DNA from: Acidobacteriota bacterium
GTDB taxonomy: Bacteria; Acidobacteriota; Vicinamibacteria; Vicinamibacterales; UBA2999
Reading direction: 5' to 3'
Length of the DNA stretch: 64,000 nt
Assembly: GCA_021730945.1 (NCBI GenBank)
Contig: JAKFYH010000042.1
Location: 1-64,000, forward strand
Shown here: positions 8,413 through 47,513 of the stretch, one piece after another
How the letters are laid out: every line of letters starts with the position of its first letter
Position numbering within the stretch: position 1 is the first letter of the stretch
Translations under genes and position numbers: made by a program
The notes under the pieces: model-generated
The model's database searches: none
Seen by the model: only the letters and a program-made list of their open reading frames with translations
Told to the model about the DNA's origin: nothing

Positions 8413-8505
8413 GGTGCTGGGGTGCTGAGGTGCTGGGGTGCTGTGGTGCTGAGGTGCTGAAGTGCTGGGGTGCTGAAGTGCTGAAGTGCTGAGGTGCTTG
8501 AGTGC
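8413..8505. repeat. Minisatellite with 8-bp units (GCTGRRGT)
   Basis: About eleven degenerate head-to-tail copies of an octamer such as GCTGGGGT, GCTGAGGT and GCTGAAGT. Similar GGTGC-rich tracts recur at 10170-10247 and 19039-19143, always between genes. Confidence 0.75.
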
Positions 8506-8668
8506 AGGAGTCGCGACGTCGAGCGCCGATTCATGTTGCAAAAACTTCGACTAGTCGGATGACCTGAGCAGCTGAACACGCGAGGATTCGATGATTCCCA
8601 CGAGGCATGCCGTTCGCAACTCGATGAGCATGCCCGAGATCTCCTCGGCGGCGACCTGCCGGTCCCAC

Positions 8669-10123: not shown

Positions 10124-10169
10124 GCCGGTTGGCACTCTCCTCACCCGCCGCACAAGGTGCTTAGGGTGC

Positions 10170-10247
10170 GTACGGGTGCCTAGGGGTGCCTAAGGGTTGG
10201 TGCCTAGGGTGCCAAGGGGAGGGTGCCGGTGCGACGGCACCCCCCCT
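10170..10247. repeat. GGTGCC-rich tract ending in a hairpin
   Basis: Repeated GGTGCC(T)AGG words, then an inverted repeat: AGGGGAGGGTGCC pairing with GGCACCCCCCCT (10215-10246), followed by TTT. The hairpin could terminate transcription of the upstream gene, but the T-run is short. Confidence 0.45.
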
Positions 10248-19038: not shown

Positions 19039-19143
19039 AGGTGCTAGGGTGCTCGGGTGCCAGGGTGCCGGGTGGGTGCCAGGGTGCCGGGTGCCAGGGT
19101 GCCGGGTGCCAGGGTGCCGGGTGGGTGCCAGGGTGCTAGGGTG
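19039..19143. repeat. GGGTGCC minisatellite
   Basis: Head-to-tail copies of GGGTGCCA and GGGTGCCGGGTG-like words between the symporter promoter and the next gene. It resembles the other GGTGC-rich tracts in this window. Confidence 0.75.
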
Positions 19144-19189
19144 GCGGGCGGGACGCGGGGTCCCGCCTTCACTCAATGTGCGCCGGTCG

Positions 19190-34679: not shown

Positions 34680-37358
34680 ATGTCGCTGTCCACCGGCACC
34701 CGTATCGGCGCCTATCAGGTCATCGCCAAACTTGGCGAAGGCGGAATGGGCGAGGTGTATCGCGCGAAGGATTCGAAGCTGAAGCGCGAGGTCGCGCTCA
34801 AGGTCCTCCCCGCCGACGTCGCCAACGACCGCGAGCGCATGGCGCGGTTTCAGCGCGAGGCTGAAGTGCTCGCCTCGCTCAACCATCCCCATATCGCGCA
34901 GATCTACGGGATCGAAGATAACGCGCTCGTCATGGAGCTGGTCGAAGGCGAGGATCTCGCCGAACGACTGAAGCGCGGCGCCATCCCGCTCGACGAGGCG
35001 CTGCCGATCGCGAAGCAGATCGCCGAAGCGCTCGAAGCCGCGCACGAGCAGGGGATCATCCATCGCGATCTGAAGCCCGCCAACATCAAGGTGCGGCCGG
35101 ACGGCACGGTGAAGGTGCTCGATTTCGGGTTAGCGAAAGCGCTCGATCGTTCGGAGGGCGATGACTTGGGCCGTCGCCCGGCGGACGCTGAAGCGTCCGC
35201 CCTCCAAACGATCACGAGTCCCGCCATGACGATGCGCGGGATGATTCTCGGCACGGCCGCCTACATGGCGCCGGAGCAGGCCAAGGGCAAGGTGGTCGAC
35301 AAGCGCGCGGATATCTGGGCGTTTGGCGTGGTGCTGTTCGAGATGCTCAGCGGCACGCGCGCCTTCAAGGGAGACGATGTCACCGACATCATCACGGCTG
35401 TGATGCGCGATACGCCGGACTGGAGCGCGCTGCCGCCGGCGACGCCGCCGGCGATTCGCACGCTGCTCGAACTTTGCCTGCTGAAGGATCCCCGTCAGCG
35501 GCTGCGCGATATCGGCGATACACGGCTGTTCTTTAACGATCACGCCCCGGCTCAAACGGCCGGCGCCGCCGCCGATTCCCGGTCGAAGTGGGTGCCCGCG
35601 CTCGTCGGCGGACTGGCCCTGGCGCTGATTGGGCTTGCCGCCTCACTCTATGGTGGGCGCAGCTCTGCTGAGGCAGCGCCCTTGCACCTGTCGATGACCT
35701 TCGAGCCGGGGTCACTGCCGCAAAAAGGGCAGCCGATGCCGTCGCTGGCGCTGTCGCCAGACGGCCGCACGCTGGTCTACACGGCTGGCGGCGGGCCGGA
35801 AGGCACGCAACTCTGGCTGCGACACCTGAACAACGTCTCGGCGATTCCGATTCCCGGCACAGGCGGGGCCCAGCTGACCAACACTGATATCGCACGCCAG
35901 GTCTTCTTCTCGCCTGACGGCAAGTGGATTGGTTTCGTCGTCGGCGGCAACGTGATCAAGAAGATGCCGATCACGCTCGGTCCGGCAACCACCATCTGCG
36001 AAGTCTTCGACGGCGTGCGCGGGGCAACGTGGACGGATCGCAATGAGATTGTGTATGCAACTTCGTCCGGCAGCCTTGGGCTGTGGCGCGTGGCCGACTC
36101 CGGCGGCACTCCGGCACGCGTCGCCGGCGGCATCTTCTACGCCCCCGATGCGCTGCCTGGCGGCACCGCTGTGGTCGTGACGACCGGCAACGATTCTGTG
36201 AAGCGCAGCACCGGCGATTTGACGGTAGCGGCGGTGACGCTGGCGACCGGCGCGGTCACGAAGCTGTTCGATGGCGGCACCTTCGCGCGCTACGTGCCAA
36301 CCGGTCACGTGGTGTTCGCGCGCGACGGCGCGCTGATGGCGGCCCCATTCGATGCCGCATCACTGGTGGTCGGTGACGCGCGCACGAAGGTAGTGGACGA
36401 CCTGTGGATGGATCCCGGCGTGGCGAGTTCCAACTACGCCCTGTCCTCCTCCGGCACCTTGATCTACGCCGCGGGCTCGCCCGCCGAGTTCCAGCGGACG
36501 ATCGTCGCGCTCGATGGAGGACGCTCGACGCCGCTCGTCAAGGAGCGTCGGTACTACGCCGAGACCCTGATCTCGCCGGCCGGTGACCGGATTGCCGCGG
36601 TCGAGCGGGCCCTGGACGATCGCATCTGGATCATTGATGTCGCGCGTGAAACGTTCACGCCGCTAACCTCGGGAAAGGTCGGACTCGAGTCCGACCCGGT
36701 GTGGGCGCCGAGCGGCCGCGAGGTCGTCTTCGACGCCACCGTCCTGGGCGGAACGTCCGGGTTGTACGTGGCGCCGGTTGACGGCAGTCAGACCGAGACG
36801 CTGGTACACGCCAGCAACAACGGGCCCGTGCCGACGGCGTGGACGCGCGACGGCCGCCAGGTGGTGTTCACCGAACGAAACGCGGCCACCGGACTTGACC
36901 TGATGGTGCTGTCGCGCGACCAGGGCAACACGGTTCGCCCGCTGCTGCAGACGCCGTTCGATGAAGCCCAGGGCGTGTTCTCCCGGGACGGTGCGCTGAT
37001 CGCCTTCCAGTCCGGGCGATCGGGCCGGTCGGAAATTTACGTCGCCCCCTTTCCGTCGATGCAAGGGACCGCGCAAGTGTCGATCGACGGCGGCATGTAC
37101 CCGGTGTGGGCGAAGGATCGACAACGGTTGTATTTCCGGAACCGTGGCCAGGTGATGGCTGTGGACCTCGCAGCCGGCGTGACCGACGCGCCACGGCCGG
37201 TCCCGGTCGCGCGGTTTGTCCCCACCTACCCAACCGCATTCATTGACCCGATGCCGGACGGCCGCTTCCTCGCTCTCGAGGGTCCCAACGCCGCTGCGCT
37301 CACGGAACTGCGAGTGATTGTCAACTGGTTTGTGGAGCTCCGGGAGAAGGCGCGCTGA
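34680..37358 (+). CDS. Ser/Thr protein kinase 2 with beta-propeller C-terminus
   Basis: 892 residues. Kinase domain (about 13-275) with GEGGMGEVY, VALKVLP, HRDLKPAN, DFGLAKALD and YMAPEQ; a transmembrane helix near 307-327 (VPALVGGLALALIGLAASLYG); then PD40-like propeller repeats (SPDGRTLVY, SPDGKWIGF, SRDGALIAF). A 60-bp palindromic pair (35151-35210) adds about 20 residues between DFG and APE, so the activation segment is longer than in kinase 1. Its stop overlaps the start of kinase 3 (TGATG). The kinase domain is almost identical to that of kinase 3, the propeller is not. Confidence 0.9.
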   Translation: MSLSTGTRIGAYQVIAKLGEGGMGEVYRAKDSKLKREVALKVLPADVANDRERMARFQREAEVLASLNHPHIAQIYGIEDNALVMELVEGEDLAERLKRGAIPLDEALPIAKQIAEALEAAHEQGIIHRDLKPANIKVRPDGTVKVLDFGLAKALDRSEGDDLGRRPADAEASALQTITSPAMTMRGMILGTAAYMAPEQAKGKVVDKRADIWAFGVVLFEMLSGTRAFKGDDVTDIITAVMRDTPDWSALPPATPPAIRTLLELCLLKDPRQRLRDIGDTRLFFNDHAPAQTAGAAADSRSKWVPALVGGLALALIGLAASLYGGRSSAEAAPLHLSMTFEPGSLPQKGQPMPSLALSPDGRTLVYTAGGGPEGTQLWLRHLNNVSAIPIPGTGGAQLTNTDIARQVFFSPDGKWIGFVVGGNVIKKMPITLGPATTICEVFDGVRGATWTDRNEIVYATSSGSLGLWRVADSGGTPARVAGGIFYAPDALPGGTAVVVTTGNDSVKRSTGDLTVAAVTLATGAVTKLFDGGTFARYVPTGHVVFARDGALMAAPFDAASLVVGDARTKVVDDLWMDPGVASSNYALSSSGTLIYAAGSPAEFQRTIVALDGGRSTPLVKERRYYAETLISPAGDRIAAVERALDDRIWIIDVARETFTPLTSGKVGLESDPVWAPSGREVVFDATVLGGTSGLYVAPVDGSQTETLVHASNNGPVPTAWTRDGRQVVFTERNAATGLDLMVLSRDQGNTVRPLLQTPFDEAQGVFSRDGALIAFQSGRSGRSEIYVAPFPSMQGTAQVSIDGGMYPVWAKDRQRLYFRNRGQVMAVDLAAGVTDAPRPVPVARFVPTYPTAFIDPMPDGRFLALEGPNAAALTELRVIVNWFVELREKAR
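35151..35210. repeat. Head-to-head REP pair (BIME-like) inside kinase 2
   Basis: 60 bp (20 codons). GGAG at the left is followed by a GGGCGA…TCGCCC hairpin; a second hairpin GCGGACGCTGAAGCGTCCGC follows and ends in CTCC, the complement of GGAG. The two units therefore face each other, as in bacterial interspersed mosaic elements. It encodes the region around SEGDDLGRRPADAEASALQT in the activation segment and keeps the frame. Confidence 0.75.
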
Positions 37359-40015
37359 TGGCTCTGCTGCCTGGCACGCGGATCGGCGTTTACGAGATCA
37401 CCGCCTCCCTCGGTGCAGGTGGCATGGGCGAGGTGTATCGCGCGAAGGACTCGAAGCTGAAGCGCGAGGTCGCGCTCAAGGTCCTCCCCGCTGACGTCGC
37501 GAACGATCGCGAGCGCATGGCGCGGTTTCAGCGCGAGGCTGAAGTGCTCGCCTCGCTCAACCACCCCAACATCGCTCACATTCACGGCCTCGAGGATGCA
37601 AACGGTACCACTGCGCTCGTCATGGAACTGGTCGAGGGCGAGGATCTCGCCGAACGGCTGAAGCGCGGCGCGATTCCCATCGATGAAGCACTGCCAATCG
37701 CGAAACAGATCGCCGAGGCGCTCGAAGCCGCGCACGAGCAGGGGATCATCCATCGCGATCTGAAACCCGCCAACATCAAGGTGCGACCGGACGGCACGGT
37801 GAAGGTGCTTGATTTCGGGTTAGCGAAAGCGCTCGATCGTTCGGAGGGCGATGACTTGGGCCGTCGCCCGGCGGACGCTGAAGCGTCCGCCCTCCAAACG
37901 ATCACGAGTCCCGCCATGACGATGGACGGGATGATTCTCGGCACGGCGGCGTACATGTCGCCGGAGCAGGCGAAGGGCAAGGCGGTCGACCGGCGGACGG
38001 ACCTCTGGGCATTTGGAGCCGTGCTCTACGAAATGCTCACCGGCCGGCGCCCCTTCGATGGCGAAGACGTCACCGAGATCATCGTCCAGGTTGTTTCCAG
38101 GGAGCCGGACTGGTCGGCCATTCCCGCAGCCACGCCCGTCGGCGTGCAGCGATTGCTGCGTCGTTGTCTGGAGAAGGACCGGAAGCGCCGGCTTGATTCA
38201 GCTGCGGCGGCCCGATTCGAACTCGACGACGTGGCGCCTGCCGCAGAGACCCGGGCCGTCGTTCGCGGCACCCACTTGCCTTGGATGGTCGCCGCCGTGG
38301 CCACCATCGGCGCAGGGCTCGTTGGTCTCATTGCGTTCGGCGGCTCACGCGAGCCCTTGACGCCGGTCTGGACCTCGATTCCGGCGCCGGTGAGCACCTT
38401 TAGCCGTGGCCTCGGCCCGGCGGTGTCGCCTGACGGCCGGCACATTGCGTTTGTCGCACCCGACGACACTGGCAGCGAGAGCCTGTGGACACGCGCGCTC
38501 ACTGCGCAGTCGGCGCAGATGATCGAGGGAACGACCGGGGCGAACTTTCCATTCTGGTCACCCGATAGCCGAGCGATCGCATTTTTCAAGGATCGAAAAC
38601 TGGTGACCGTGCCCGCGGTGGGCGGCGCCACGATGGTGGTCGCCGACGCGCCCAACCCGCGAGGGGGCACATGGAATCGGGACGGCGTGATTGTGTTCGT
38701 CCCCGGCTCGGGCCTGGGCCTCCACCGCGTGTCTGCGTCAGGAGGGACGTCCGCGGTGCCTCTTGAAGAACCCGCCGACCATCCAACGACCGCGATTAGT
38801 TGGCCGAGCTTCCTCCCCGATGGGCAGCATTTCTTGTTCACCGGCATCCGTGGCGGCCAGATGTGGATCCATGTCGGCTCGCTGACGAGCCCCGACCACA
38901 CGCTGCTGCTGCAGGCGGCTTCGAAGGCGCAGTACGCCGACGGCTATCTTCTCTTTGGCAGCAAGGGCGGGCTCTATGCCCAGCCGTTCGACGCCGCAAC
39001 CCTGGCACTCTCTGGTGAGCGTGTGCGGATCGTTGACGCAATCGGGGCCAGCGCCGGATCGACGAATAACCACTCGTTCTCGGCCTCCGCGACCAATTCG
39101 GTGATTGCCGTCGGTCACCGGCCGTTCGCCCGTGAAGCGCAGCTGACCTGGTTCGATCGCAACGGCGTCCGACTGGGCGTGCTGGGCGAGGCGGGCCGCA
39201 TCTTTGGCCTGGCCGCGTCACCTGACCGCACGCGAGTCGCGATCGAAAGGAATGACCCCCGGCAGAACTCCACCGACCCTTGGATCGTGCAAGTCGACTC
39301 CGGCTTCGCCACTCCGGTGAGGGCAATGGCCGAGGGCGCCCTGGCCAGCAGCCCAGTCTGGTCGCATGACGGCCGCAAGGTGTTCTATAGCAGCGGCTAC
39401 GGCGCCATGCAGATGGCGTCGCTTTCGGGTGAGACGGAAGAGCGGTGGCCCGTGGGCATCCACTGGCCGACGAGCAGCTCCCCGGACGGACGGCTGGTCA
39501 TGATCCTGCAGGAGCTGGTGGCCTCACAGAGCGACCTGATGATCGTGTCGCTCACGGGCGATCACACCCCCACGCCCTATCTCCAGACGCCGTTCAACGA
39601 ACACTCCGGCCGCTTCTCGCCCGATGGCAAGTCGGTGGTCTATGTGTCGAACGAGTCGGGGCGGGATGAGGTGTACGTGCAATCGTTCCCCCGAACCGCC
39701 GCGAAGATCCGGATTTCCGCCGCCGGCGGGACGCACCCCGAGTGGAACGACGATGGCCGGGAGGTGTACTTCCTGCAAGCGCAGTCGAGCGGCCAGCGGT
39801 CGATGATGGTGGCGTCGATACTGGCCGGTCGGTCATCGCCGCCACGACGGCTGTTCGACCTGCCACCCGGTGTCTGGGAAGACTCGGGCCGGACTACGTA
39901 CGCAGTGTTCGACCACGGACGCCGCTTCCTCGTGAACGTCCTGGTGCCGATCGCGGCGCCGCAAGTCATCACCGTTGGGCAGCGCTGGACGGCCGCTCTC
40001 AACGCGGCTCAGTGA
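37358..40015 (+). CDS. Ser/Thr protein kinase 3 with beta-propeller C-terminus
   Basis: 885 residues. Kinase domain with GAGGMGEVY, VALKVLP, HRDLKPAN, DFGLAKALD and YMSPEQ, followed by a transmembrane segment (LPWMVAAVATIGAGLVGLIAF) and PD40-like repeats (SPDGRHIAF, SPDSRAIAFF, SPDGKSVVYV). Starts in the TGATG overlap with kinase 2, so the two are probably one transcript with coupled translation. The N-terminal 230 residues match kinase 2 nearly residue for residue, including the palindrome insert, whereas the sensor part differs. Confidence 0.9.
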   Translation: MALLPGTRIGVYEITASLGAGGMGEVYRAKDSKLKREVALKVLPADVANDRERMARFQREAEVLASLNHPNIAHIHGLEDANGTTALVMELVEGEDLAERLKRGAIPIDEALPIAKQIAEALEAAHEQGIIHRDLKPANIKVRPDGTVKVLDFGLAKALDRSEGDDLGRRPADAEASALQTITSPAMTMDGMILGTAAYMSPEQAKGKAVDRRTDLWAFGAVLYEMLTGRRPFDGEDVTEIIVQVVSREPDWSAIPAATPVGVQRLLRRCLEKDRKRRLDSAAAARFELDDVAPAAETRAVVRGTHLPWMVAAVATIGAGLVGLIAFGGSREPLTPVWTSIPAPVSTFSRGLGPAVSPDGRHIAFVAPDDTGSESLWTRALTAQSAQMIEGTTGANFPFWSPDSRAIAFFKDRKLVTVPAVGGATMVVADAPNPRGGTWNRDGVIVFVPGSGLGLHRVSASGGTSAVPLEEPADHPTTAISWPSFLPDGQHFLFTGIRGGQMWIHVGSLTSPDHTLLLQAASKAQYADGYLLFGSKGGLYAQPFDAATLALSGERVRIVDAIGASAGSTNNHSFSASATNSVIAVGHRPFAREAQLTWFDRNGVRLGVLGEAGRIFGLAASPDRTRVAIERNDPRQNSTDPWIVQVDSGFATPVRAMAEGALASSPVWSHDGRKVFYSSGYGAMQMASLSGETEERWPVGIHWPTSSSPDGRLVMILQELVASQSDLMIVSLTGDHTPTPYLQTPFNEHSGRFSPDGKSVVYVSNESGRDEVYVQSFPRTAAKIRISAAGGTHPEWNDDGREVYFLQAQSSGQRSMMVASILAGRSSPPRRLFDLPPGVWEDSGRTTYAVFDHGRRFLVNVLVPIAAPQVITVGQRWTAALNAAQ
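37841..37900. repeat. Head-to-head REP pair (BIME-like) inside kinase 3
   Basis: Identical in all 60 positions to the element in kinase 2 and at the same codon phase, between DFG and APE. This indicates that the insertion predates the duplication or was copied by gene conversion. Confidence 0.75.
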
Positions 40016-41764: not shown

Positions 41765-44700
41765 ATGACTGGACGCCGAATTCTGTCTCTGGTTGTCATT
41801 GTCCTGGCCGCGTTTGTCACGCAGGGGCAATTGGCGACCGCCAAAGCCATCGCCCTCCGAACGCATGCAGCGCAGGCGGCGCCGGCGCTGCAAAGCAGCG
41901 ACCTCGCTGGGTTGCGCCTCCGCGGCATCGGCCCGGCCACCATGTCGGGGCGCTTCGTCGACATGGACGTCGTCGAGTCCAACCCCTTCATCATGTATGT
42001 CGCCTCGGCGACCGGCGGGATGTACCGCACCACCGACAACGGCATCACCTGGGCGCCGGTGTTCGAGCGTGAAGCCGTGCACTCGATCGGCGACGTCGCC
42101 ATCTATCAGCCCGACCCCAACATCATCTGGGTCGGCACCGGCGAGCGCGCCAACCGGCAAAGCGTCGGCTGGGGCGACGGCATCTACAAGTCGACCGACG
42201 GCGCCAAGACCTGGACCAACGTCGGCCTCAAGACCTCCATGCACATCGGCCGCATCGTCACTCACCCATCGAACCCGGCAATCGTCTATGTCGCGGCACA
42301 GGGGTCGGTGTGGGGAGCGGGCGGCGAACGCGGGCTCTACCGCACGATGGACGGCGGCAAGACCTGGCAGCGGACACTGCACGTGGACGACGACACCGGC
42401 GTGACCGACGTCGTGATGGACACGCTCGATCCCAACGTGCTCTATGCCGCGTCGTACCAGCGGCGCCGCACCGCGTTTGGCTTCAACGGCGGCGGTCCCG
42501 GCAGCGCAATGTGGAAGAGCACCGATGCCGGCGCGACGTGGACGAAGCTGACCGGCAACGGCCTGCCCGAGGGCGAGTACGGCCGCATCGGCATTGCGGT
42601 CTACCGCAAAGACCCGCGCGTGGTGATTGCCAGCATCGAGCAGGGTTTCCGCTACAACGCGTCGACCGCCTACACCGAGCGGCGCGGCGGGCTGTATCGC
42701 AGCAACGACGCCGGCAAGACCTGGCGCTTCATGTCGAACTGGAACCCGCGGCCGATGTATGCCAGCCAGCCGACCATCGATCCGCAGGACGATCGCCGCG
42801 TCTACATGCTCAATCAGTACTCGTTCTCGGACAACGGCGGCGAGACGTTCACCTCGCCGAACACGACCACCCACGGCGACGACCGCTTCGTGTGGATCAA
42901 CCCGAAGGATTCGCGACACGTGATCAAGCTGGATGACGGCGGGATTGGCATCTCGTTCGATCGCGGGCTGAAGTTCCTGTACGTGCAGAACCTGCCGGTG
43001 TCGCAGTACTACCGCGTGGCGGTCGACAACGAGCGGCCCTACAACATCTACGGCGGGCTGCAGGACAACGGCTGCTGGAAGGGTCCGAGCGCCAGTTGGA
43101 CGACCAGCGGCATTCTCAACGAACACTGGTCGCGGCTGTGCGGTGGCGACGGCTTCTTCTCGGTGCCCGATCCGGCCAATTCGCGCATCGTGTTCTCGGC
43201 CAGCCAGTTCCTGGGCCTGGCGCGCAACGACACGCGGACGTGGCAGAGCCAGGACATCCGGCCCGGCGATCCGCAGGGTGCGATCGGCGATCGCCGCAAC
43301 TGGAATACGTGGGGCAAGGACGTGCCGGCCCAAGTGCTGGGCAACGAGTGGCATTACGCCAACTGGGACGCGCCCGTCGCGCTCTCGCCGTTCGACGCGG
43401 CAACCGTTTATGCCGGCGGCAAGCACCTGTTCCGCTCGCGCGATCGCGGCAACACCTGGGAGGACCTCGGCGACATGACGACCGGTGTCGACCGCAGCAA
43501 GCTGGCGGTCATGGGCCGCCTGCCGGACGAGAACACGCTGTCGGTCGACGACGGCGTGCCGTTCTACCCGGGCCTGGTGGCGATTTCACCTTCGCCGCTG
43601 ACAAAGGGACTGCTCTACGTAGGAACTGACGATGGGCGGCTGCGCATGTCGCACGACGATGGCAAGACCTGGACCGATTTGCAGGACCGGCTGCCCGGCC
43701 TGCCCCGGTCGTCGTGGTTTGGCGGCATCGAGGCCTCGCGCCACAACCCGAACACGGTATACGTCGCGATCGACAACCATCGCAGCAACGACCTGAACAA
43801 CTACATCTACAAGTCGGCGGACGGCGGCAAGACGTTCACGGCCATCACCGGCGACATGCCGGCGGGGCGCGTGGTGCGGACGATTCGCGAGGACGTCAAG
43901 AACCCGAACCTGTTGTTCGCAGGCACCGAGATCGGCTTGTTCTTCTCGCCCAACAGCGGCACCAACTGGATCGAGCTGAAGAACAACATGCCGACCCTGC
44001 CGCACAACGACCTGGTGATCCACCCGCGCGACAACGACCTGGTGCTGGCCACGCACGGGCGCGGCATCTGGATCCTGGACAAGATCAACGCGCTGCAGGA
44101 ACTGACGCCGCAGGTGATGGCCTCGCCGGCGCACCTGTTCACGGTGGCGCCCGCGTACCAGATCCGCCAGACCAACCTGAAGGCGCACACCGGCGACATG
44201 TGGTTCCGCGGTGAGAATCCGGCCAACGGGGCGCTGGTGGACTACTGGCTGGCGGCCGCGGGCACCGCGCCGACCATCACCGTGCACTCTGCGGGCGGCC
44301 AGTTGATCAACACGCTGCGGCCGACCTCCACCAAGGGCGTGAACCGCGTGGTGTGGAACCTGCGCGAGAGCGACCTGCCGCTGCGCGGTGGGTTCGGCGG
44401 TGATGACGATGCGCCGCAGGCCGGGGGCGGCATGCCGGGCCCGCTGGTCGCGCCGGGCGTCTACCTGATCCGCATGGCCGCCGGGGGCCGCACGCTGGAG
44501 CAGAAGGTCGAGGTGCGTGAAGACCCGCGCATCGACATCACGCCGGCCGAGCGCAAGCTGTGGACCGACGCGCTGGCGCAGGCCGCGGCGCTGGCGCGGA
44601 TGTACGGGCCGGTGAACGATCGCATCCAGAAGCTGCCGAACACGGCGGCCGATGGGGTGGAGCTCAAGCGCCAGTCGCGCGAACTGCTGTCGAGGATCTC

Positions 44701-44806
44701 GGGGCTGTATGGAGCGATCGGCCGCTGGACCGGCGCGCCGACGAAAGACCAGATGTCGCGGCTGGCGTATTACCAGACGATGGCGAAGCAGTTGGCTGCG
44801 CGGTGA
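41765..44806 (+). CDS. Exported VPS10/BNR-type beta-propeller protein
   Basis: 1013 residues. A signal peptide (ILSLVVIVLAAFVTQGQLAT) is followed directly by ATAKAIALRTHAAQ, which comes from a degenerate copy of the palindromic repeat. The mature part is built of many BNR/sortilin-like Asp-box repeats (S-T-D-x-G-x-T-W: KSTDGAKTW, RTMDGGKTW, KSTDAGATW, RSRDRGNTW), forming one or two propellers up to about residue 780. The last 200 residues are helical. Proteins of this type are often annotated as glycosyl hydrolases, but no catalytic residue set is evident; ligand or glycan binding seems more likely. Confidence 0.85.
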   Translation: MTGRRILSLVVIVLAAFVTQGQLATAKAIALRTHAAQAAPALQSSDLAGLRLRGIGPATMSGRFVDMDVVESNPFIMYVASATGGMYRTTDNGITWAPVFEREAVHSIGDVAIYQPDPNIIWVGTGERANRQSVGWGDGIYKSTDGAKTWTNVGLKTSMHIGRIVTHPSNPAIVYVAAQGSVWGAGGERGLYRTMDGGKTWQRTLHVDDDTGVTDVVMDTLDPNVLYAASYQRRRTAFGFNGGGPGSAMWKSTDAGATWTKLTGNGLPEGEYGRIGIAVYRKDPRVVIASIEQGFRYNASTAYTERRGGLYRSNDAGKTWRFMSNWNPRPMYASQPTIDPQDDRRVYMLNQYSFSDNGGETFTSPNTTTHGDDRFVWINPKDSRHVIKLDDGGIGISFDRGLKFLYVQNLPVSQYYRVAVDNERPYNIYGGLQDNGCWKGPSASWTTSGILNEHWSRLCGGDGFFSVPDPANSRIVFSASQFLGLARNDTRTWQSQDIRPGDPQGAIGDRRNWNTWGKDVPAQVLGNEWHYANWDAPVALSPFDAATVYAGGKHLFRSRDRGNTWEDLGDMTTGVDRSKLAVMGRLPDENTLSVDDGVPFYPGLVAISPSPLTKGLLYVGTDDGRLRMSHDDGKTWTDLQDRLPGLPRSSWFGGIEASRHNPNTVYVAIDNHRSNDLNNYIYKSADGGKTFTAITGDMPAGRVVRTIREDVKNPNLLFAGTEIGLFFSPNSGTNWIELKNNMPTLPHNDLVIHPRDNDLVLATHGRGIWILDKINALQELTPQVMASPAHLFTVAPAYQIRQTNLKAHTGDMWFRGENPANGALVDYWLAAAGTAPTITVHSAGGQLINTLRPTSTKGVNRVVWNLRESDLPLRGGFGGDDDAPQAGGGMPGPLVAPGVYLIRMAAGGRTLEQKVEVREDPRIDITPAERKLWTDALAQAAALARMYGPVNDRIQKLPNTAADGVELKRQSRELLSRISGLYGAIGRWTGAPTKDQMSRLAYYQTMAKQLAAR
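41834..41862. repeat. Degenerate REP unit in the VPS10 N-terminus
   Basis: 29 bp from GCGACCGCCAAAGCC to CCTCCGAAC. It matches the 29-bp core of the repeats at 45972 and the reverse complement of the array at 44808-45392 with three mismatches. It encodes ATAKAIALRT, the same residues as the M24 copies. Confidence 0.7.
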
Positions 44807-44807
44807 C

Positions 44808-45392
44808 GTTCGGAGAGCGACGGCTTCAGCCGTCGCTGCGTGGCGTTCGGAGAGCGACGGATCCAGCCGTCGCTGCGTGACGTTCGGAGAGCGACGGCTT
44901 TAGCCGTCGCTACGGGACGTTCGGAGAGCGACGGCTTTAGCCGTCGCTGCGGGACGTTCGGAGAGCGACGGCTTTAGCCGTCGCTACGGGACGTTCGGAG
45001 AGCGACGGTTTCAGCCGTCGCTGCGGGACGTTCGGAGAGCGACGGCTTTAGCCGTCGCTGCGGGACGTTCGGAGAGCGACGGCTTTAGCCGTCGCTGCGT
45101 GACGTTCGGAGAGCGACGGTTTCAGCCGTCGCTGCGTGACGTTCGGAGAGCGACGGCTTTAGCCGTCGCTACGGGACGTTCGGAGAGCGACGGCTTTAGC
45201 CGTCGCTGCGGGACGTTCGGAGAGCGACGGCTTTAGCCGTCGCTGCGGGACGTTCGGAGAGCGACGGCTTTAGCCGTCGCTACGGGACGTTCGGAGAGCG
45301 ACGGCTTTAGCGGTCGCTACGGGACGTTCGGAGAGCGACGGCTTTAGCCGTCGCTACGGGACGTTCGGAGAGCGACGGCTTTAGCCGTCGCT
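44808..45392. repeat. Tandem array of 16 REP-like palindromes, 37-bp period
   Basis: Fifteen complete 37-bp units and a final 30-bp core, with no insertion or deletion between them. Each core is GTTCGGAGA, then the 20-bp palindrome GCGACGGCTTTAGCCGTCGC, then CT/TR and the GGGAC-type spacer. Apex variants are TTTA and TTCA; one copy is GATCCA and one has a stem change (GCGGTC). The array begins one base after the VPS10 stop codon and runs into the RAYT gene. GGAG stands 5' of each hairpin. Confidence 0.95.
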
Positions 45393-45881
45393 GACGGGTC
45401 GGCGCGGCTCGTGGACGGCCAGTTCCATCACGCTGAACCGCGAGGATCCCGTGAAAGGATATTCCTCAGGTGATGCCACGAGTCCGGCCCTGACAGGGTT
45501 CAGAACGATGTAGGCGGCGACGGCGGAGAGGGACTCATCGTCGCGAAGCGTGTGATCCCAGTAGCCCTCTTGCCAGAGATACTGCCCCGTCCTCTTACGC
45601 TCCCAGAATCCAGACAGCTGGCGCCAGAGATGGACCCATTTCAGGAAGTCGGCATCCGCCCGTTCCGCCTCAATCAATACGTGAACGTGGTCCGGCATCA
45701 GACAGTACGCAAAAACCGCGAAGCCGCGCTTCGTGGCCGATTGAAATAGTTGCTCGGTCACCGTCGCGCAGAGCGCGGCGTCGGTAAAGGCGGGCCGGCG
45801 GTCGTACGTCGCTGCCGTCAGGAAATGGCTGTAGCGCCCTCGATAGTGGGAGAGGGCTAATCGATGAGGCTGCCTTGCCAT
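45381..45881 (-). CDS. REP-associated tyrosine transposase (RAYT, Y1_Tnp)
   Basis: 166 residues from ATG 45881 (GTG codons at 45884 and 45887 are alternatives). The HUH motif is in YCLMPDHVHVLIEAE (H-x-H) and the nucleophilic tyrosine is in AAYIVLNPVRAGL. RGRYSHFLTAATYDRRPAF at the N-terminus and QEGYWDHTLRDDES in the middle are also typical of RAYTs. These enzymes nick REP hairpins preceded by a GTAG/GGAG-type tetranucleotide. The TAA stop is inside the last REP unit of the array, so gene and array are physically joined. Confidence 0.9.
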   Translation of the reverse strand: MARQPHRLALSHYRGRYSHFLTAATYDRRPAFTDAALCATVTEQLFQSATKRGFAVFAYCLMPDHVHVLIEAERADADFLKWVHLWRQLSGFWERKRTGQYLWQEGYWDHTLRDDESLSAVAAYIVLNPVRAGLVASPEEYPFTGSSRFSVMELAVHEPRRPVSDG

Positions 45882-45915
45882 CACCACTGGCGCTGCAAAC
45901 CACGGGCCGAACCGG

Positions 45916-45921
45916 TAGAAT
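45916..45921 (+). promoter_or_regulatory. -10 box TAGAAT, 8 nt before the M24 peptidase
   Basis: TAGAAT at 45916-45921 precedes the ATG at 45930 by 8 nt. Confidence 0.4.
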
Positions 45922-45929
45922 CAACCGTT

Positions 45930-47513
45930 ATGCAAATTCGAATCGCCGTTTTGCTGATCGTTGTCATGGCGGCGACGGCTAAAGCCGTCGCCCTCCGAAC
46001 GCCGGAGTCCGCTGGCGCAGCGACGGCTAAAGCCGTCGCTCTCCGAACGCCGGAGTCCGCTGGCGCAGCGACGGCTGAAGCCGTCGCTCTCCGAACGCCG
46101 GAGCCCGCTCGCGCAGCGACGGCTGAAGCCGTCGCTCTCCGAACGTCGGAGCCCGCTCGCGCGGCGACGGCTAAAGCCGTCGCTCTCCGAACGCCGGAGC
46201 CCGCTCGCGCAGCGACGGCTGAAGCCGTCGCTCTCCGAACGTCGGAGACGCAGTCGGTCCAATATCCCGATCCCACCGAGCGGGTGCTGACGCACCGCGA
46301 GCAGAACGCGCTGGTCACGCCGTGGATCAAGAAGCGATTCGATACGCTGCTCGCCGGGCTGATGACCCGCGAGGGGATCGACATGTGGATCATTCCCACC
46401 CGCGAGTACAACGAAGACCCGGTGTTCGCGTCGATGTCGCCGCTCACCTACTATGCGTCGCGGCGGCGCACCATCCTGGTGTTCTTCAATCCCGGCGGCG
46501 GCAAGCCCGCCGAGCGCTATTCGATCGGCCGCTTCGACTACGACGGCATCTTCCCGATGGTGCCGTCGACCAACGACGGCCAGCACGAGGCGCTGCGCAA
46601 GCTGGTGGACGAGAAGAACCCCAAGGTGATCGGCATCAACGAATCCGATGCCTGGCAGCACGCCGACGGCATCACCGCCAACGAGAAGCGCCGCCTGGTC
46701 GAGGCGCTCGGTCCGGCCCACGCGGCCAAGATCAAGTCGGCGGAAATGCTGGCAGTGGGCTGGCTCGAAGTGAAGCTACCCGAAGAACTCGACGCCTATC
46801 GCCACGCCATGAAGGTGGCCCACATGGTGATTCGCGAGGCGTTCTCGAACAAGGTGATCACGCCCGGCAAGACCACCAACGAAGACGTGGTGTGGTGGAT
46901 GCGCCAGCGGGTGGTGGAACTGGGCCTCGGCAAGTGGTTCCAGCCGTCGGTGACGATCTTCCGGCAGGGCGAGAAGACCAGCCCGCGCGGAGTCATTCTC
47001 CCCGGCGACATGCTCCACACCGACTTTGGCATCGTCTACATGGGTTTCTCGACCGACACGCAGCACAACGCCTACGTGCTGAAGCCCGGTGAGACCGATG
47101 CCCCGGCCGGCCTCAAGGCCGGCCTCAAGGCCGCCAACCGGTTGCAGGACCTGACCATGCAATACGCGCGGCTCGAACGCACGGGTAACCAGGCGCTGGC
47201 CGATGCGCTGGCGCAGGCCAAGACCGAGGGCCTGGTGCCGTCGATCTACTGCCACCCGGTCGGCTATCACGGCCACGCCGCCGGACCACCCATTGGCATG
47301 ACCGACTACCAGCAAGGTGTGCCGGTGCGCGGCGACTACGTGTTCCGCCCCAACACCTGGCACTCGATTGAGCTGAACGTCACCTTCAACGTGCCCGAAT
47401 GGGGCAACCAGCCGGTACGGTTCGCGCTCGAAGAAGACGCGGCGATCATGCCCGGCGGCAAGTGGGACTGGATTGATGGGAGGCAGGAGGCGTTCTACTT
47501 GATCAAGCCGTAA
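45930..47513 (+). CDS. M24-family Xaa-Pro peptidase with six REP-encoded repeats
   Basis: 527 residues from the ATG at 45930. Signal-like start (IRIAVLLIVVMA), then six copies of a 16-residue unit ATAKAVALRTPESAGA (variants TAEAV, SEPARA) at about residues 15-105, made by palindromic repeats in frame. The peptidase part begins with SVQYPDPTERVLTHREQN. A creatinase-type N-domain (residues about 120-280) precedes the pita-bread catalytic domain, in which HTDFGIVYMG, CHPVGYHGHAAGP, SIELN and ALEEDAAI supply the metal ligands. Likely an exported prolidase or aminopeptidase P. The repeat block replaces the sequence right after the signal peptide. Confidence 0.85.
   Translation: MQIRIAVLLIVVMAATAKAVALRTPESAGAATAKAVALRTPESAGAATAEAVALRTPEPARAATAEAVALRTSEPARAATAKAVALRTPEPARAATAEAVALRTSETQSVQYPDPTERVLTHREQNALVTPWIKKRFDTLLAGLMTREGIDMWIIPTREYNEDPVFASMSPLTYYASRRRTILVFFNPGGGKPAERYSIGRFDYDGIFPMVPSTNDGQHEALRKLVDEKNPKVIGINESDAWQHADGITANEKRRLVEALGPAHAAKIKSAEMLAVGWLEVKLPEELDAYRHAMKVAHMVIREAFSNKVITPGKTTNEDVVWWMRQRVVELGLGKWFQPSVTIFRQGEKTSPRGVILPGDMLHTDFGIVYMGFSTDTQHNAYVLKPGETDAPAGLKAGLKAANRLQDLTMQYARLERTGNQALADALAQAKTEGLVPSIYCHPVGYHGHAAGPPIGMTDYQQGVPVRGDYVFRPNTWHSIELNVTFNVPEWGNQPVRFALEEDAAIMPGGKWDWIDGRQEAFYLIKP
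45972..46247. repeat. Six in-frame REP units, 48-bp period
   Basis: Units start at 45972, 46020, 46068, 46116, 46164 and 46212. Each contains GCGACGGCTAAAGCCGTCGC (or CTGAAG apex) followed by TCTCCGAAC and a 19-bp linker. The core is the reverse complement of the array units at 44808-45392. The period is a multiple of three and encodes no stop codon. Confidence 0.95.

Follow-up and report, generated by a model that had tools for sequence, protein, structure and literature searches.

In-frame copies of a RAYT-associated REP at the predicted signal peptide of an M24-type gene and in other genes of an Acidobacteriota genus

How a repetitive extragenic palindromic (REP) sequence comes to be repeated in frame at the predicted signal peptide of an apparently exported protein is the question raised by a 64,000-nucleotide stretch of contig JAKFYH010000042.1 (assembly GCA_021730945.1) from an Acidobacteriota bacterium, hereafter the window. 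A gene for a REP-associated tyrosine transposase (RAYT) lies here between a 37-bp array of REPs and an M24-type gene with six further REPs near its start. We propose that a REPtron, i.e., a RAYT gene between inverted REPs, was placed beside the M24 gene with one of its flanking REPs in frame in the signal peptide, and that tandem growth under selection for the reading frame followed. The probability of this reading is put at about three in four. The features on which it depends are as follows.

44807..45392, + strand: array of 16 REPs with a 37-bp period, GGAG strand on +
45381..45887, - strand: RAYT gene, 168 aa (NF047646, PF01797, PDB 4er8 and alignment)
45916..45921, + strand: TAGAAT box, 8 nt 5' of the M24 ATG (read by eye from the upstream sequences)
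45930..47513, + strand: M24-type protein gene, apparently exported, start ATG at 45930
45930..46001, + strand: predicted signal peptide MQIRIAVLLIVVMA (by eye and hydropathy), then the first REP, read as ATAKAVALRT
45971..46241, - strand: six REPs of 31 bp each with a 48-bp period (starts 45971, 46019, 46067, 46115, 46163 and 46211)

REP copies at the N-terminus of the M24 protein

Tandem Repeats Finder reported one array at 44800-45398 (period 37, 16.1 copies, 94% matches) and another at 45972-46247 (period 48, 5.8 copies, 95% matches). A weight matrix made from 22 copies placed 16 REPs on the + strand, from 44807 to 45362, and six on the - strand, from 45971 to 46211. With up to three mismatches allowed, the palindrome had 52 matches in the window (both strands counted), versus a mean of 1.45 in 100 shuffles. 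The initial annotation had described a 16-copy array abutting the RAYT gene, with the stop codon of the latter in the last hairpin, and six oppositely oriented copies read through in the peptidase; both descriptions were borne out. Coding overlap of the 37-bp array is limited to its last copy, shared with the RAYT gene. The REPs of the 48-bp array lie on the - strand and their translated reading is on the opposite (+) strand, with the unit ATA[KE]AVALRT[PS]E[SP]A[GR]A, and the peptidase open reading frame (ORF) is open through all six copies.

Nine genomes of the genus were compared, G000 (the genome of the window) to G008, and the mature M24 domain is 92-100% identical among them. In four of the nine (G002, G003, G004 and G008) the gene has an ordinary REP-free signal peptide whose end, ...DAQ, is followed by the conserved YPDPT. 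Exactly at this ...DAQ site the remaining genomes have REP copies, six in G000, one in G001, five in G005, one in G006 and three in G007; the relatives have differing copy numbers or none, rather than the same 16-residue repeats throughout, which the initial annotation had named as evidence against its claim. All M24 REPs are in one frame, nearly always ATA[KE]A[VI]AL (in one G005 unit the last A is replaced with G), and the ATAKAVALRT frame holds A-x-A signal-peptidase motifs. Among 22 of 80 M24 loci fetched by homology (L262-L283), REPs are limited to L263, L264, L265 and L268, whose N-termini are the same as those of G007, G006, G008 and G001, respectively; the script did not recognise the gene in two of the 22, and for two others it printed a stretch other than the N-terminus. 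The name M24 peptidase, used in the initial annotation, needs a qualification. The window domain alone matched no Pfam family, and the label therefore rests on relatives, seven of eight aligned members matching PF00557 (best E value 2.4e-10). A PDB search with the domain, as single sequence and as profile, gave no match.

A TAGAAT box is located 7-9 nt before the ATG in all five REP-bearing M24 genes and in G008 (by eye), which suggests that the M24 mRNA is leaderless. In the five REP-bearing genes the box and the ATG sit between the start of the RAYT gene, or its remnant, and the REP. The RAYT leader was considered as donor of the M24 start codon, and this idea was dropped, a TAGAAT/TAGACT box and ATG also preceding M24 in G008, G002 and G004. 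As the hydrophobic segment MQIRIAVLLIVVMA reaches the enzyme only via the REPs, translation through the array is very likely. The coding units are stop-free, as had been noted, and the ORF is open; four of the six frames are open across the 48-bp array, and the absence of stops was dropped as evidence of translation.

The 48-bp unit consists of the REP plus sequence resembling the flank of the single REP of G006 (CGGAGTC). This likeness suggests that local tandem duplication, rather than repeated insertion, made the array. The periods of coding-side arrays in the genus are 48 (G000), 36 (G005) and 36 (G007), three of three being multiples of three, while those on the other side of the RAYT gene are 37, 40, 34, 34 and 39, of which one in five is a multiple. 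It had been claimed that the period is a multiple of three only where the repeat is coding; this is correct in the present genome and fails in the genus, where the other-side period of G006 is 39. Tandem periods are accordingly no longer taken as proof of frame selection, which their contrast would back modestly.

The proposed route can be set out in steps. A REPtron would have come to adjoin the M24 gene, with one flanking REP, GCGACGGCTAAAGCCGTCGCTCTCCGAACG read as ATAKAVALRT, in frame at the signal-peptidase region. Export may have been tolerated because ATAKAVALRT supplies A-x-A motifs. The single REP with some of its flank would then have been duplicated in tandem, by slippage or unequal exchange, to three, five or six copies depending on the genome. 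On the coding side frame selection would retain periods divisible by three, whereas the copies beyond the RAYT gene could multiply with other periods. The same hairpin may have entered other proteins of the genus at tolerant places, such as signal peptides, loops, linkers and N-terminal extensions. The scheme starts from what was observed, namely the identity of the REPs, the covariation of the hairpin, the in-frame position and the presence or absence of copies in orthologues, and it presumes mobilisation by this RAYT, translation and working export of the M24 protein.

The REP unit and its transposase

On its GGAG strand the REP reads CGTTCGGAG, with a 9-bp stem and a loop of TTTA or TTCA in most copies. 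The tetranucleotide GGAG is found 5' of the hairpin in 144 of 150 aligned copies and GTAG in one of the 150, and the repeat is classed solely as a RAYT-associated REP with a GGAG head, outside the GTAG superfamily (PMC3733652). A covariance model gave 74 matches at E 0.001 in the genome of the window, some copies perhaps counted on both strands, and hit all nine genus genomes searched (74, 23, 10, 3, 3, 59, 21, 50 and 47). Outside the genus 18 of 51 genomes match, with at most 14 matches per genome and a best E value of 4.6e-7. The palindrome is dispersed in genome and genus, and its absence elsewhere, which would have counted against its link to the RAYT, was not seen. In the window and the fetched stretches of its genome the weight matrix found 55 good copies, of which 22 belong to the two arrays and 33 are dispersed, with one dispersed copy appearing twice where two contig ends overlap; this count requires a score of at least 30 and leaves out weaker copies (e.g., L142, L143, L145, L146 and L149), as well as a copy overlapping another at C19:12847.

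The stem covaries. In 90 distinct rows of an alignment that was fitted to the model, and hence leans towards it, 98.0% of cells are paired, and 99 cells are changed on both sides, against 27.3 in shuffled alignments (0 of 500 shuffles). The corresponding values for 45 intragenic copies chosen by hand (37 distinct) are 99.1% and 49 against 13.1 (0 of 500); at least five of the 45 (L082 3997, L155 3026, L179, L191 2978 and L196 3016) are not internal by the automatic rule described below. Imperfect stem pairs on the GGAG strand are T-G in 28 cases and C-A in one (150 rows). This wobble asymmetry agrees with a strand-specific, single-stranded transposase substrate, which the RAYT may cut. In the accessible text of PMC8266576, TnpAREP binds one REP strand only.

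The RAYT scored 117.9 bits against NCBIfam NF047646 (cut-off 80), which makes it a member of the Y1 transposase family REP_Tyr_transpos, and 40.2 bits against PF01797 (cut-off 23); the match to TnpArep (PDB 4er8) had an E value of 7.5e-10. It contains the HUH motif DHVHV and a tyrosine in AAYIVLNPVRAGL, aligned with five relatives, and this tyrosine we take to be the catalytic residue. An HUH motif and a catalytic tyrosine are named as RAYT features in the accessible text of PMC3733652. The gene ends with a TAA located in the loop of the array's final hairpin, and its C-terminal residues SDG are encoded by the REP. The stop is within a REP in G000, G005 and G007 and straddles the REP end in G008 (alignment without G001). 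Beside M24 the RAYT gene is flanked by oppositely oriented REPs in G000, G001, G005 and G007. In G006 the RAYT beside M24 is present only as fragments (best match 51 residues, 86% identical), the flanking REPs being still there. G008 has a relic of the RAYT N-terminus with a REP just upstream of the M24 promoter (L173 6014-6243 / L236), and a full-length RAYT with its own REPs approximately 3 kb from this relic.

REPs within other genes and at other predicted export signals

Counting intergenic and in-frame copies, which the initial annotation had recommended for the whole genome, placed 12 of the 33 dispersed copies in the window and the fetched stretches of its genome inside coding ORFs according to a codon-score rule. 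The other 21 include N-terminal in-frame copies, which this rule does not count. REPs just upstream of likely gene starts (e.g., L153, L165, L170, L171 and L176, by eye) were not counted as coding. Internal copies in the congeners amount to 8/29 (G005), 8/28 (G008), 1/8 (G001) and 1/3 (G002), these fractions describing subsets, i.e., the part of the covariance-model places that was fetched. The 30 internal copies are read as RSEGDGFSRR (16), ATAKAVALRT (11) or VRRATALAVA (3). The consensus leaves a fourth frame open, RRLKPSPSER, in which none of the 30 copies is read.

Hosts of in-frame REPs backed by Pfam matches are PheS, PheT, PurD, the protein kinase of L081, a class I tRNA synthetase with an FPG/IleRS zinc finger (probably IleRS), and a TPP enzyme (probably IlvB-like). 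In PheT, REPs are found at one place in four of eight aligned orthologues (G000, G001, G005 and G008), with a shorter loop of unrelated sequence in those of G002, G003, G006 and G009; the alignment covered 8 of 13 loci and left out G004, which has two weak REP-like matches at this place, G007 and three others. Further REP-bearing kinases, two in the window, two in L064 and one in L078, were called by their HRDLKPAN and DFG motifs. In the kinases the REP follows DFGLAKA, within the activation loop, and this position is shared by L064 (twice), L078, L081 and the window pair. The initial annotation had regarded translated REP arrays in an exported protein as not usual for RAYT/REP systems; that remark has to be tempered, in-frame REPs being in print (PMC3733652) and present in many genes of this genus. 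The REP-bearing genes of the window other than the M24 gene are these.

35148..35210, + strand: two REPs, inverted relative to each other and read in frame, in the activation-loop region of a predicted Ser/Thr kinase (DFGLAKALD-RSEGDDLGRRPADAEASALQT-...GTAAYM; kinase by motif)
37838..37900, + strand: same inverted REP pair in the neighbouring paralogous kinase (kinase by motif)
41765..44806, + strand: sortilin/VPS10-like protein gene, apparently exported (PF15902, E value 2.9e-28)
41833..41863, - strand: lone in-frame REP (ATAKAIALRT) in the predicted signal-peptide region of the VPS10-like protein

The stop codon of the VPS10-like gene directly adjoins the first REP of the 37-bp array. Comparison of relatives at this gene, likewise recommended earlier, revealed no REP in G004 and G005 and one behind the signal peptide in G002; the N-terminus was not obtained for three of seven VPS10 loci.

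Seven gene families have in-frame REPs at the N-terminus. The proteins of six of them look exported, judged by charge, a hydrophobic stretch and A-x-A by eye, with a hydropathy check of 17 N-termini (a Tat-like one is low, 1.27). These six are the M24, VPS10-like, TPR with CxxCH, ankyrin, SMP-30-like (with a Tat-like start in G008) and CarboxypepD_reg-like proteins, the last with a sub-threshold match and an uncertain start codon; the seventh is an RNase_H_2 protein. Since REPs are common near gene ends, the proportion of six in seven is descriptive and not a test. In the TPR/c-type gene, an inverted REP pair is situated at the signal-peptide core in G001 and G005, where G003 and G008 have the core itself; at the position of MRIAVLVLSLLMLHLSRPPDAAAQ in G003 the pair of G005 encodes MTPTVRRATALAVAVTVVAMAEAIALQASASAQ, and each starts at a GTG that follows a shared NQ. 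The pair seems to replace the core of the predicted signal peptide. In G007 a REP remnant is found where the frame begins, probably at a contig end. By tblastn one stop codon lies inside six of eight close matches to the TPR gene; in G005 the frame is open for 592 codons from the REP, so that there the stop is not at the N-terminus. For three of the eight loci of this gene the N-terminus was not obtained. As for the ankyrin protein, the start of L076 and the end of L083 (C35 and C64) are contig ends sharing a REP stretch, and their joined reading is an ankyrin protein with a REP-encoded signal-peptide start.

It might be supposed that REPs are recurrent donors of export signals, ATAKAVALRT giving signal-peptidase sites, VRRATALAVA a charged start and hydrophobic core, and an inverted pair being able to replace a whole signal peptide. 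We offer this tentatively and consider it rather doubtful. If true, a resident transposase system keeps remodelling the secretion signals of its host.

Further short G-rich tandem repeats are found in the window at 8413-8511, 10156-10227 and 19040-19161, with the units GGTGCTGA, GGTGCCTAGG-like and GGTGCCAG.

Alternative explanations and known systems

The six REPs might form an untranslated leader, the true M24 start being located after the array. An extragenic position is the usual one for REPs, PMC3733652 cautions that gene starts may be misannotated in many cases of N-terminal REPs, and open frames across the array prove nothing. However, a leader would leave MQIRIAVLLIVVMA, upstream of the array, without its connection to the enzyme. 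Moreover, in REP-free orthologues, including those of G013 and G017, which are from other genera, the signal peptide directly precedes a domain start of the YPDP..RVLTHREQ type. The TAGAAT-ATG arrangement is conserved, and the array copies of G005 and G007 hold the same frame at a different period, all of which makes an untranslated leader very unlikely. That the copy number is an artefact of assembly is the least credible of the alternatives. Misassembly is frequent at short tandem repeats and the nearest named records are metagenome assemblies, but arrays of other periods occupy the same place in G005 and G007, and AAA and GAA codon variants of the unit are interspersed in the coding array. 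Selection might also have acted on the peptide, an Ala-rich repeat serving as stalk or linker of an exported enzyme, and the presence of three, five or six copies in three genomes with the frame kept would suit such a role. It is nonetheless an unlikely explanation, given the single copy in G001 and G006, its absence from four of nine genomes, the variable residues that join the REP-encoded parts (of the PESAGA type in G000 and the ETP type in G005), and the amplification of the same REP on the other side of the RAYT gene. Hardly more probable is that the hairpins act as RNA at the start of the M24 message, in stability, pausing or attenuation, with translation incidental. The hairpin is stable on both strands (calculated as DNA, -11.8 kcal/mol for the GGAG strand and -11.4 kcal/mol for the other) and the stems covary even in genes. 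On the other hand, the asymmetry of the wobble pairs points to the GGAG strand as the one that folds. This strand is opposite to the M24 message, and its folding would be expected if the hairpin served a transposase rather than this mRNA; the argument does not extend to copies read on the GGAG strand.

Several observations weigh against the reading that we prefer, namely a REPtron beside M24 followed by in-frame tandem growth. No RAYT match at E 1e-10 was found in G002, G003 and G004, which nevertheless have dispersed REPs (10, 3 and 3 matches), and the pairing of RAYT and REP therefore rests on linkage. The M24 gene of G008 has a REP-free signal peptide and a REP placed upstream of its promoter, which bears on the arrival route of the element. 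The period contrast is weak, with a hand-calculated one-sided Fisher value of 0.07; of the five other-side periods, three were taken from just two copies, and the layout is common to G005 and G007, probably by shared ancestry. The covariation shuffles do not preserve the relatedness of copies, and the further pair types among in-gene copies were reached by 121 of 500 shuffles and are not exceptional. Signal peptides were judged solely by eye and hydropathy, and the nearest 22 records fetched by homology are all metagenome assemblies.

The name REP implies a place outside genes. Members of the RAYT-linked family described here are in frame in many genes, and the stem continues to covary inside housekeeping enzymes. 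In the predicted signal peptides a mobile DNA hairpin and a protein signal use the same bases. This makes the reshaping of proteins by a RAYT a testable question, and the M24 genes with 0, 1, 3, 5 and 6 copies provide a natural series on the effect of extra signal-peptidase motifs.

With RAYT/REP and REPIN systems, as presented in the accessible parts of PMC2817692 and PMC3116915, the present one shares an IS200/IS605-related tyrosine transposase, flanking inverted REPs made of a tetranucleotide and a palindrome, and the occurrence of dispersed singles, inverted pairs and tandem arrays. Unlike those systems, it has GGAG rather than GTAG or GTGG, many in-frame copies in genes, and one flanking REP inside the signal peptide of a neighbour. 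Intragenic GTAG/CGTC REPs (PMC3733652) also reside in ORFs of conserved proteins, including DNA repair and tRNA enzymes, and in-ORF REP clusters encode 43 to 82 residues in Thauera and R. conorii; the term 'signal peptide' does not occur in the main text of that paper, and a contrast between array periods in and outside genes was not met in its accessible text. Rickettsia palindromic elements (PMC2229807) are likewise palindromic repeats in frame in conserved proteins. They are described there as 105-146 bp long, whereas the unit here is approximately 31 bp and a RAYT gene lies within one copy pair. RU-2/YPAL in YPO1552 (PMC2759123, PMC2229807) is longer (168 bp) and from other genera; here the REP occurs in several apparently exported genes that are unrelated to one another, and in one of them it has grown in tandem. 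PARCEL (PMC2996958) shares dyad-symmetric tandem repeats coding for parts of membrane-targeted proteins, linked to mobile elements in some taxa, but concerns a 25-residue amphipathic domain, and its abstract names neither RAYT nor REP. REPs recurring in signal peptides were not found in the titles or abstract openings of the open-licence matches listed. Published examples already exist of REPs in frame, of palindromes that are coding, and of one signal peptide containing a mobile repeat; what is new here is the recurrence at predicted signal peptides, the link to a RAYT and the in-frame amplification.

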